64,000 nt of DNA from assembly GCA_031316115.1 (NCBI GenBank), contig JALDRC010000008.1, positions 1 through 64,000 on the forward strand, given 5' to 3'. The position numbers were made by a program, and so were the translations under genes. This stretch comes from Nitrososphaeraceae archaeon (lineage in GTDB: Archaea; Thermoproteota; Nitrososphaeria; Nitrososphaerales; Nitrososphaeraceae). Positions 22,379 through 24,984 of the stretch are shown here, piece after piece; positions within the stretch are counted from its first letter, which is position 1; each line of letters starts with the position of its first letter. Under the pieces are notes generated by a model. The model was not told where the DNA came from, ran no database searches, and saw only the letters and a list, made by a program, of their open reading frames with translations.

Positions 22379-22930
22379 TTAGTAATAAGATCTTTCGATT
22401 TTATTTAGAAAATCCATATAACTTTTAACTGATTCGTTGTAATATTTTTGTCCAATTTCCATTGTTTTGTTGAAAAATTCTGAATATTCCAATGTAATTT
22501 CATTGATTATTCTACTAGTATCGATAGAGTTACCAGAAATTTTTTTATTTGTTTCATTATAGGCATTACTGAATCTTCCTGGAACCATGAAGTTTTTCCA
22601 ATAATCATTTGAGATATTATTTACAATTTTAGAAAATGTTGACTCGTATAGTTTGTAAATATTGTTTTGGATTTCAAGGTAATTTTCTGATATTGATTGG
22701 AATGTTTCGAGAGTTTGATCAGCTAGTTTATTCGTTGATTTGATATTGGTCTGAATAAAATCATTATTATTTTTTTGATATTCATTAGTAGTGTTATTGA
22801 TATTGTCTAATGTCTTAGCTGTGTTGGATTTTACAGTATCTAGTTGATTCTTTTGTTGTTCTGCCACCTGGGCTATTTCTTTTTTTTCTTCTAGATTTTG
22901 ATTTTTAATTTCTTCTTTTTGGGTTGTCAT
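22379..22930 (-). CDS. Coiled-coil protein, possibly phasin-like
   Basis: This 183-residue, Asn/Glu/Lys-rich protein is almost wholly helical. Residues 1-90 form a likely coiled coil (EEIKNQNLEEKKEIAQVAEQ onward, with KLADQTLETFQSISENYLEI). The second half has aromatic-rich helices (YESTFSKIVNN, YWKNFMVP, YSEFFNKTMEIGQKYYNESV). There is no signal peptide or membrane segment. Length and amphipathic, repeated aromatic pattern recall phasins that coat polyhydroxyalkanoate granules, which soil thaumarchaea can make, but no pha gene is in the window and the assignment is weak. It is divergent from the cluster starting at 23073. Confidence 0.5.
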   Translation of the reverse strand: MTTQKEEIKNQNLEEKKEIAQVAEQQKNQLDTVKSNTAKTLDNINNTTNEYQKNNNDFIQTNIKSTNKLADQTLETFQSISENYLEIQNNIYKLYESTFSKIVNNISNDYWKNFMVPGRFSNAYNETNKKISGNSIDTSRIINEITLEYSEFFNKTMEIGQKYYNESVKSYMDFLNKIERSYY

Positions 22931-23072
22931 AATGTAAAGCTAGACAAACCAGTATATTAAGCAAAATAAACTTAGATACAAAAAGTAATGTTAAAGTGAT
23001 AGTTTTAAAAATAATTTTTAGGGATCTTTAACTACTAAAATTATATTTAAGATTCCAGTTCATAACTCTAAT

Positions 23073-23747
23073 TTGAGTTTTGAGGGCAGCTTTATAGCAA
23101 GAAAATTCTTTTCTTCTCTAAATGCATCTAGCTATGACCTTGTTGTTAAATATACAACATTTGGAAAGGATTCTACATGGAAAAAACATATTGTTAAACA
23201 TATCAAGGAATATCATAAATGTATACTCGACCTAGCATGCGGCACAGGAATATGTTCTACGTTTATAAAATCTGAAAAATTAGACCTATATGGTGCAGAT
23301 CTGACATTTGAATACATTTTAAAGGCAAAAAAAAGGATGAAATATTCATTACTTACAAACTCTATAGCAGAATTTTTACCATTTAAATCAAATATGTTTG
23401 ATCTTGTTATTTCATCATATTTAGCCAAATACGCCAATATTAAACTATTAGTAGAAGAAATTTGGCGCATTACCAAGAAAAATGGATCTGTAGTCTTTCA
23501 TGACTTTACCTTTCCGAATAATATATTTATGAAATTTTTTTGGCACAAATATTTTAGAATTCTAAATTTCATAGGAAAAATAGCAAAGCCTTGGGAATCA
23601 GTTTTATCAAATTTAGATAACTTAATCAAAGAAACTAAATGGACTACAATGCTTTTAAATGCCTTGGGCAATAAGGGATTCAAATCCATTGTTATTGAAT
23701 CACACACATTTGGAACATCTGCGATAGTCTCAGCTATAAAACCATGA
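23073..23747 (+). CDS. UbiE/MenG-like SAM-dependent methyltransferase
   Basis: The 224-residue product has the SAM-binding motif ILDLACGTG at residues 51-59, a second-strand acidic residue in LYGADLT, LPFKSNMFDLVISS before the fourth strand, and WRITKKNGSVVFHDFTFP after it. The start is a TTG (MSFEGSF). The stop overlaps the start of the next gene by four bases (ATGA at 23744-23747), implying translational coupling. With the following membrane protein and UbiC-like lyase, methylation of an aromatic headgroup is a reasonable inference; direct evidence for the substrate is lacking. Confidence 0.7.
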   Translation: MSFEGSFIARKFFSSLNASSYDLVVKYTTFGKDSTWKKHIVKHIKEYHKCILDLACGTGICSTFIKSEKLDLYGADLTFEYILKAKKRMKYSLLTNSIAEFLPFKSNMFDLVISSYLAKYANIKLLVEEIWRITKKNGSVVFHDFTFPNNIFMKFFWHKYFRILNFIGKIAKPWESVLSNLDNLIKETKWTTMLLNALGNKGFKSIVIESHTFGTSAIVSAIKP

Positions 23748-24448
23748 AAGAATCTACTCGTATTAATGAATGGTTTGTTCCACGTTTCGGACCATTAAAA
23801 TTTAGAGCATTCATCGGATTACTATTTCTACCCTATACCTTTATGTGCATATCGTTTACTATCATAGGATCAGTAACTTCCATAACCATATTCTGGGATA
23901 GAACTATTGCGATAATTTTAATATATTTTTTAGCACTGGGCATTTCAGCTCATGCTGCTGATAACTTAGGATCAAAAAAAAATAAACCTTGGGGAAATTA
24001 CTTTTCTGAAAAAGAACTTAAAGTAATGATCATAGGAGGTCTATCTCTGGCATATATTATAGGTGTATATTATGTACTTACTTCTGCCTTTGTACTATTG
24101 TTTATTGGAATAATAGAAGGTTTTTTCTTATTCGCTTATAACTTGGAACTTTTCAAAGGTTTCTTTCACAATAATTTTTGGTTTGCTCTATCGTGGGGAA
24201 GTCTTCCTTTATTAGCAGGTTATATAATACAAACAAACACTATTTCAGAAATAGCTTTAGTCTCAGCCTCATTCGCATTTTTAATTTCATTTATTCATAT
24301 AAGAATATCTAGAAGATATAAAGCATTAAAAAAAACTAGTCCTTATAACCTAAAAGCAAATCAATTAGAATATTATCTTAAAATCATTAGTTTCTCAACA
24401 ATTTCATTTTCTATATTTTTGGTACTTGTAAGAGTTTATCTGTTATAA
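23744..24448 (+). CDS. Polytopic membrane protein, possibly UbiA-like prenyltransferase
   Basis: The 234-residue protein has about seven hydrophobic helices. A polar loop after helix 2 reads GISAHAADNLGSKKNKPWG, and a second polar segment AYNLELFKGFFHNNFWFALSWG follows helix 5. The His/Asp loop sits where UbiA-superfamily enzymes carry an Asp-rich metal/diphosphate motif, but the canonical N-D-x-x-D-x-x-x-D is absent, so a divergent UbiA relative is only a hypothesis. It overlaps the upstream methyltransferase by four bases and is followed after 32 bases by the UbiC-like gene, so the three are probably one transcript. Confidence 0.6.
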   Translation: MKESTRINEWFVPRFGPLKFRAFIGLLFLPYTFMCISFTIIGSVTSITIFWDRTIAIILIYFLALGISAHAADNLGSKKNKPWGNYFSEKELKVMIIGGLSLAYIIGVYYVLTSAFVLLFIGIIEGFFLFAYNLELFKGFFHNNFWFALSWGSLPLLAGYIIQTNTISEIALVSASFAFLISFIHIRISRRYKALKKTSPYNLKANQLEYYLKIISFSTISFSIFLVLVRVYLL

Positions 24449-24480
24449 GATATTAAATTAAAGCTACTATTGAATGTAAT

Positions 24481-24984
24481 ATGAAACTTGTTTTAAAAAT
24501 CAGCAATCCATATCAAGTCTCCATTAATGACATAGCTAAATTAGAAAAGATGTGTAAAATTAAATTTAATAACTTTGAAAAAATACTTCTTGCTCACAAT
24601 GGTACTACCGAGCTAATTCTTCGAATTTTATTAAATAAACCTACAAAAATTAATATAATTAGTCAGAAAGAATCTAAAGATATTCTTACACGAGAATCTC
24701 AGATAGTTACTCATCAATTAAAACCAACTGTGTTGATTCAAGCTCATTCTAAAGTCTATTTAAACAGAATTCCTTCTGAAATTATTGACAAATTGAGATT
24801 AGGCCATGAAGGAATAGGTATGATTTTACTAAAACACAGAATTGAGACATATAAAAAAATAACAAAAATAGGATATCATTTAGAAAAAAAATCTATTTGT
24901 CGTATGTATAGAATATCTTATAAATATCAAAATATATGTGAAATAAACGAAAAATTTATGATCAATTTCGAAAAACTAGTCTAA
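24481..24984 (+). CDS. UbiC/DUF98-like chorismate-pyruvate-lyase family protein
   Basis: The 167-residue protein has the layout of the chorismate lyase-like fold: ILLAHNGTTELILRILL near residue 35, the Arg of ILTRESQIV near residue 70, VLIQAHSKVYLNRIP near residue 91, and GIGMILLKHRIETYKKI near residue 113, which includes the Gly-Ile-Gly-x-I-L and Arg/Glu positions of the family. UbiC converts chorismate into 4-hydroxybenzoate and pyruvate; archaeal DUF98 members are thought to act likewise but few are tested. Placement behind a membrane protein and a methyltransferase suggests aromatic prenyl-quinone-like synthesis. The first ATG is used. Confidence 0.6.
   Translation: MKLVLKISNPYQVSINDIAKLEKMCKIKFNNFEKILLAHNGTTELILRILLNKPTKINIISQKESKDILTRESQIVTHQLKPTVLIQAHSKVYLNRIPSEIIDKLRLGHEGIGMILLKHRIETYKKITKIGYHLEKKSICRMYRISYKYQNICEINEKFMINFEKLV

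Follow-up and report, generated by a model that had tools for sequence, protein, structure and literature searches.

What do three adjacent genes resembling a methyltransferase, a membrane protein and a chorismate lyase make in an ammonia-oxidising archaeon whose quinone is reported as menaquinone? Menaquinone is the quinone credited to ammonia-oxidising archaea (AOA; PMC10030591), and futalosine genes have been reported from Thaumarchaeota (PMC3914697). A 2026 survey of bacterial quinones points out that the overviews of archaeal quinones date back over ten years and that further quinones could still await discovery (PMC13386864). The genes lie in a 64,000-nucleotide stretch (hereafter the window; contig C19 of genome G000) of an archaeal genome of 3.16 Mb in 20 contigs, and a preliminary description had seen in them a possible aromatic or quinone headgroup unit. 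This proposal is supported by the fold and residues of the lyase, the UbiA fold of the membrane protein and the co-occurrence of the genes. We estimate a probability of about 0.6 that the three genes, here called E, A and C, constitute a single operon whose product is a prenylated aromatic membrane lipid and possibly a benzoquinone, with C acting as lyase, A as prenyltransferase and E as methyltransferase.

Gene layout

All three open reading frames are intact and lie on the forward strand. E (23073..23747; 224 aa, TTG start) encodes a UbiE/MenG-like SAM-dependent methyltransferase, A (23744..24448; 234 aa) a divergent UbiA-superfamily membrane protein, and C (24481..24984; 167 aa) a predicted chorismate pyruvate-lyase of the DUF98/Rv2949c type. 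E and A overlap by ATGA (23744-23747) and C starts 32 bases past the stop codon of A, in agreement with the same-strand arrangement first described. A TATA-like element, TTATATTTAA, can be read directly from the sequence at 23041..23050 on the same strand, about 22 bases 5' of the TTG of E, a position compatible with a leaderless archaeal mRNA that begins at E and spans the whole unit.

The neighbouring genes in the window encode a coiled-coil protein, an aldehyde dehydrogenase, a glutamine synthetase and a cation efflux protein, and do not suggest a larger pathway here. The coiled-coil protein (22379-22930; 183 aa) is phasin-like, is transcribed divergently from the operon and has no Pfam match.

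A predicted chorismate lyase and a UbiE-like methyltransferase

C matches the Pfam profile of Rv2949c-like chorismate lyases (PF01947) with an E-value of 7.4e-4 and 19.9 bits, narrowly under the cut-off of 22, and its relatives exceed that cut-off with 24-38 bits (2.7e-9 and 3.4e-5). The profile of the C family finds the solved DUF98 protein 2NWI at 1.8e-22, and 2NWI is also the best Foldseek match of the AF2 model (pLDDT 92.6; 5e-8, TM 0.72), which superposes on E. coli chorismate lyase (1G81/1JD3) with a TM of about 0.6. R71 and E157 of C correspond to the catalytic R76 and E155 of E. coli UbiC (mature numbering), and neither residue varies among 49 aligned sequences, a set that takes in short marine copies and E. 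coli UbiC itself. By profile, modelled fold and catalytic residues, C is a predicted chorismate pyruvate-lyase of the Rv2949c/DUF98 branch (PF01947). The same family includes the Rv2949c chorismate pyruvate-lyase of mycobacterial phenolic glycolipid synthesis, whose product is extended by polyketide synthases and not by a UbiA-type protein.

The preliminary description had raised the prospect that the lyase belongs to a different family, such as UTRA-only proteins. This fold is indeed common to UTRA domains, and the UTRA domain of DasR (1.8e-3) adjoins E. coli chorismate lyase in the fold ranking, as would be expected if C were a UTRA-like ligand-binding or other non-catalytic domain in an operon that is not biosynthetic. 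We consider this very improbable, given that 2NWI is the best match by both sequence and fold, that C has no DNA-binding domain and that its linkage to A is strict. Since C combines the chorismate-lyase fold with the invariant Arg and Glu, the UTRA-only reading was rejected.

E matches the Pfam UbiE/COQ5 family (PF01209) at 1.5e-15, with 57.6 bits against a cut-off of 20.1, and its SAM motif, LDLACGTG, can be read directly in the sequence. Against TIGR01934 it scores 92 bits, under the curated UbiE/MenG cut-off of 158. In a tree of E, the A-linked proteins from both domains fall into a single clade (support 95) apart from other UbiE-like proteins.

A divergent UbiA-superfamily protein

Both the window protein A (2.6e-4) and its Nitrospirales homologue (1.1e-6) match Pfam UbiA below the curated cut-off. 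E. coli UbiA was not reached from A by profile comparison, direct HMM comparison with E. coli UbiA or with canonical UbiA proteins of AOA gave weak matches, and searching the A profile against PDB sequences returned chance matches only. The AF2 model of A (pLDDT 91.6) shows about seven long helices, where classical UbiA has nine. Its top Foldseek matches are A. fulgidus UbiA 4TQ4 (4TQ3-6), UBIAD1 8DJK and the DGGGP synthases 7BPU/6M31; UbiA-type structures are matched with probabilities of 0.99-1.00 and TM values of 0.50-0.57, but with weak E-values of 0.026-0.26. The leading PDB fold matches belong to the UbiA superfamily throughout and no transporter fold was matched, which disposes of the plain transporter that had been considered earlier. 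Pfam and structure matches thus bear out the initial assignment of the three genes to a methyltransferase, a membrane protein and a DUF98/UbiC-type lyase.

The absence of the canonical UbiA Asp motif, remarked on in the preliminary description, extends across the family: where NDxxDxxxD would be expected, AHxxDxxG stands in 95-99% of 110 sequences, with KPWG following it (AH70xxD73xxG..KPWG in the window protein). Also absent is the other canonical Asp-rich motif, the second one, which belongs in the loop that follows helix 6; its place is taken by S189-R190-x-Y192-K193 at the end of helix 169-198, a placement that depends on a weak profile alignment and on the helix order in the model. Strictly conserved among the 110 sequences are H70, D73, E125, Y132, N133, E135, H142, S189, R190, Y192, K193 and E209. 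Judged by alignment and model, A is a divergent, shortened member of the UbiA superfamily in which both Asp-rich motifs appear to be replaced. Because these motifs hold the Mg-diphosphate in known UbiA enzymes, prenyl transfer by A could be lost or differ, and the altered motifs therefore leave room for a role other than that of a prenyltransferase.

Conservation and gene order in Archaea

The lyase is present in 33 of 61 relatives. Among the first 30 lyase loci, A lies beside C in 29 and E does so in 24, and the sole locus without A ends at a contig edge. Of 299 genomes of the phylum, 28 have A, and C occurs in 18 of these, compared with 1 of the 271 that lack A (Fisher p = 7e-21, uncorrected for relatedness). 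Since A lies beside the lyase in nearly every locus and C is almost confined to genomes with A, the grouping of E, A and C is not a product of chance.

Gene order differs between families. Nitrososphaeraceae keep the order E>A>C> in several distinct chromosomal contexts, whereas Nitrosocaldaceae have E> ..A>C> with a prenyl-diphosphate synthase and a geranylgeranyl-reductase-like gene. At the Nitrosocaldaceae-type locus L048, E lies just upstream with a dehydrogenase gene between, and downstream of A>C> come genes for a polyprenyl synthase and for a flavoprotein resembling geranylgeranyl reductase; the A-C-synthase-reductase order of locus L045 is identical. The commonest order among Nitrosopumilaceae carrying A is A>C><E, with E convergent, and some members of this family have A and E without an adjacent C. 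C is absent in Nitrosocosmicus, and in three genomes of Nitrosopumilaceae (G058, G280 and G321) A was found with neither C nor an E-clade gene. The three gene orders show that E, A and C stay together through independent rearrangements, so that the co-occurrence in related genomes, which the preliminary description had made a point to check, holds. In a distant archaeon (L186), a prenyl synthase, an A-like gene and a geranylgeranyl reductase stand in a row.

Several genes near the unit are of separate interest. Downstream of it, a NUDIX hydrolase and a radical SAM protein form a conserved block in many Nitrososphaeraceae (for example L036:10884-13839), which is not found in the window. An extended short-chain dehydrogenase/epimerase is encoded on the opposite strand beside A at L048:8103-9074 and at L094, L096, L097, L101 and L107; it was seen in Nitrosocaldaceae and in the L101 lineage, and is possibly a further pathway step. 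We discarded the idea that the short-chain dehydrogenases of Nitrosocaldaceae and Nitrospirota are one shared part, as their sequences do not find each other.

The gene content of L048 matches a cargo described before: in Ca. Nitrosocaldus cavascurensis, UbiC, UbiA, UbiE, GGPS and CHLP are labelled as cargo of the integrated conjugative element ICE-2 (PMC5797428, Fig. 8 legend), and the two are very probably the same gene set. That report gives figure-legend labels only, without a family analysis, the altered UbiA motif, the bacterial relatives or the chromosomal copies in other AOA, and our literature search found no analysis of the A family, of its altered motif or of its distribution in bacteria. 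Carriage on plasmids or phages was also considered and dropped, as tblastn with A found no match in PLSDB plasmids or INPHARED phages; one IMG/VR contig has a distant copy. On this 55 kb contig (cassette at L144:4272-8892), distant versions of C and A are accompanied by genes for a polyprenyl synthase and for a flavoprotein akin to the reductase of Nitrosocaldaceae, and the cassette may be carried by a mobile element of archaea.

Bacterial relatives and linkage to prenyl synthases

The A alignment was searched against GTDB genomes and the best 80 of 200 relatives were kept. The bacterial members among these 80 show about 47-55% identity and include Nitrospirota of the Nitrospira and Manganitrophus types, Troglogloeales, Thioalkalivibrio and other Ectothiorhodospiraceae, as well as Ramlibacter, a betaproteobacterium and a Syntrophobacterales bacterium. 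At many of the bacterial loci E adjoins A in convergent orientation, and C is not present in the linked bacterial A/E loci. In each of two Nitrospirota genomes in which E does not adjoin A, a single E-clade gene lies at another place, scoring 205 and 198 bits respectively, with the runner-up at 80 and 86. In many Nitrospirota a gene for a YCF48-like (PSII assembly factor) beta-propeller lies directly 5' of A (L126:6084-7988; also L109, L121, L122, L137, L138 and L143).

AOA sequences form one supported group (99) in the A tree, and the same bacterial subgroups recur in the largely congruent A and E trees. Both trees were computed rapidly, with SH-aLRT as the sole measure of support; they show A and E to be co-inherited, and transfer between the domains may have gone either way.

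A polyprenyl synthase directly follows A in Thioalkalivibrio, other Ectothiorhodospiraceae, Ramlibacter and Syntrophobacterales. These A-linked bacterial synthases score 201-263 bits against the synthase of the Nitrosocaldaceae cluster, whereas unlinked synthases from two archaeal loci reach 65-76 bits. This linkage bears on whether A has given up prenyl transfer for another task on prenylated lipids (as a carrier, isomerase or cyclase), with C and E making and methylating a soluble or differently attached aromatic. The exchange of both Asp-rich motifs for a strict but different residue set would suit such a change, as would the shortfall in helices and the occurrence of bacterial A and E without a linked C. 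However, a prenyl-diphosphate synthase accompanies A in two domains, and both this and the gene row of L186 are best explained by a prenyltransferase; we therefore regard a non-transferase role as rather unlikely and retain A as a putative prenyltransferase.

Relation to methyl-plastoquinone and menaquinone pathways

The methyl-plastoquinone (mPQ) pathway of Nitrospirota is likewise a benzoquinone route with UbiA, UbiC and UbiE homologues (MpqA-E), and some Nitrospirota carry A and E too. However, E proteins of both archaea and bacteria score 64-103 bits against the MpqE profile, far under its cut-off of 335, and Nitrospirota with A have a separate string of UbiC-like and canonical UbiA genes, which fits the published mPQ route. 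We thus rejected an mPQ reading of the unit, and since this separate string is present, A and E constitute an additional set in Nitrospirota. At two Nitrospirota loci (L190 and L191), a chorismate-lyase-like gene, a gene for a formylglycine-generating-enzyme-like protein and a canonical UbiA gene are consecutive; these are presumably mPQ genes, the middle one being unexplained.

The archaeal unit could instead serve menaquinone synthesis, with C replacing a missing early chorismate step, A acting as the naphthoate prenyltransferase and E as MenG. UbiE/MenG and UbiA family members do catalyse the final steps of menaquinone synthesis, and in most of the AOA genomes checked PF02621 (MqnA/MqnD-type) is represented by a single gene, leaving one of the two activities that the futalosine route needs without an obvious gene. 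In G000 the single PF02621 gene is located on contig C15 (288336-289115), and NCBIfam did not tell MqnA from MqnD for this gene in AOA. Against this, the same PF02621 gene is retained in complete genomes of marine AOA that have neither A nor C, G000 encodes four canonical UbiA proteins besides A, C carries the Arg/Glu pair of lyases that form 4-hydroxybenzoate, and A and E are present as well in Proteobacteria and in those Nitrospirota that possess separate UbiC and UbiA genes. We consider a menaquinone role improbable and set it aside as the main reading: because archaea that lack the unit keep the futalosine-family gene, E, A and C are additional to the main respiratory-quinone pathway.

Proposed function and implications

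From protein families, gene linkage and conserved residues, the reactions of C, A and E, their order and their product are most likely as follows. C would remove pyruvate from chorismate to give 4-hydroxybenzoate, onto which A, as a non-canonical UbiA-type membrane prenyltransferase, would transfer an isoprenoid (C20 or similar). The isoprenoid could be provided by the prenyl-diphosphate synthase that is linked to A in Nitrosocaldaceae and Proteobacteria and would be encoded elsewhere in the genome of the window. E would methylate the ring or an oxidised or decarboxylated derivative, although the cluster itself has no hydroxylase or decarboxylase gene, and in some lineages an enzyme of the geranylgeranyl-reductase type may saturate the tail. 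Bacteria without a linked C could draw 4-hydroxybenzoate from the host's own chorismate lyase. The product would be an accessory lipid, possibly a benzoquinone, alongside menaquinone in archaea and mPQ or ubiquinone in bacteria; the proteobacterial hosts of A and E are assumed to use ubiquinone. We found no report of such a prenylated aromatic lipid in the literature searched, which counts against the scheme, as do the lack of C in Nitrosocosmicus and in the linked bacterial loci and the Nitrosopumilaceae that carry A by itself.

A similar set of a lyase, a UbiA-superfamily protein and a UbiE-type methyltransferase is known from the ubiCA operon and UbiE of E. coli, where the lyase gene also adjoins a UbiA-type gene. 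Unlike that system, the unit described here has an archaeal host with menaquinone as its reported respiratory quinone, a lyase of the DUF98/Rv2949c branch and no further ubi genes in the cluster, and A differs from E. coli UbiA in lacking both Asp motifs and about two helices. More tentatively, A may represent a new cross-domain class of UbiA-fold prenyltransferases without Asp-rich Mg-diphosphate motifs which, with C and E, makes a so far unseen benzoquinone or prenylphenol as a second redox lipid of AOA. With its replaced motifs, A could show how much departure from the Mg-diphosphate rule prenyl-transfer chemistry tolerates.

AOA dominate nitrification in many soils and oceans, and the unit suggests that they contain a so far undescribed membrane lipid, perhaps a second quinone, through a gene set that recurs in some nitrifiers among the bacteria and in other bacteria. 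A conserved prenyl-lipid unit that is based on 4-hydroxybenzoate and common to nitrite- and manganese-oxidiser lineages predicts a lipid that should be findable by mass spectrometry, and this lipid could alter the picture of electron transport or stress protection in AOA.
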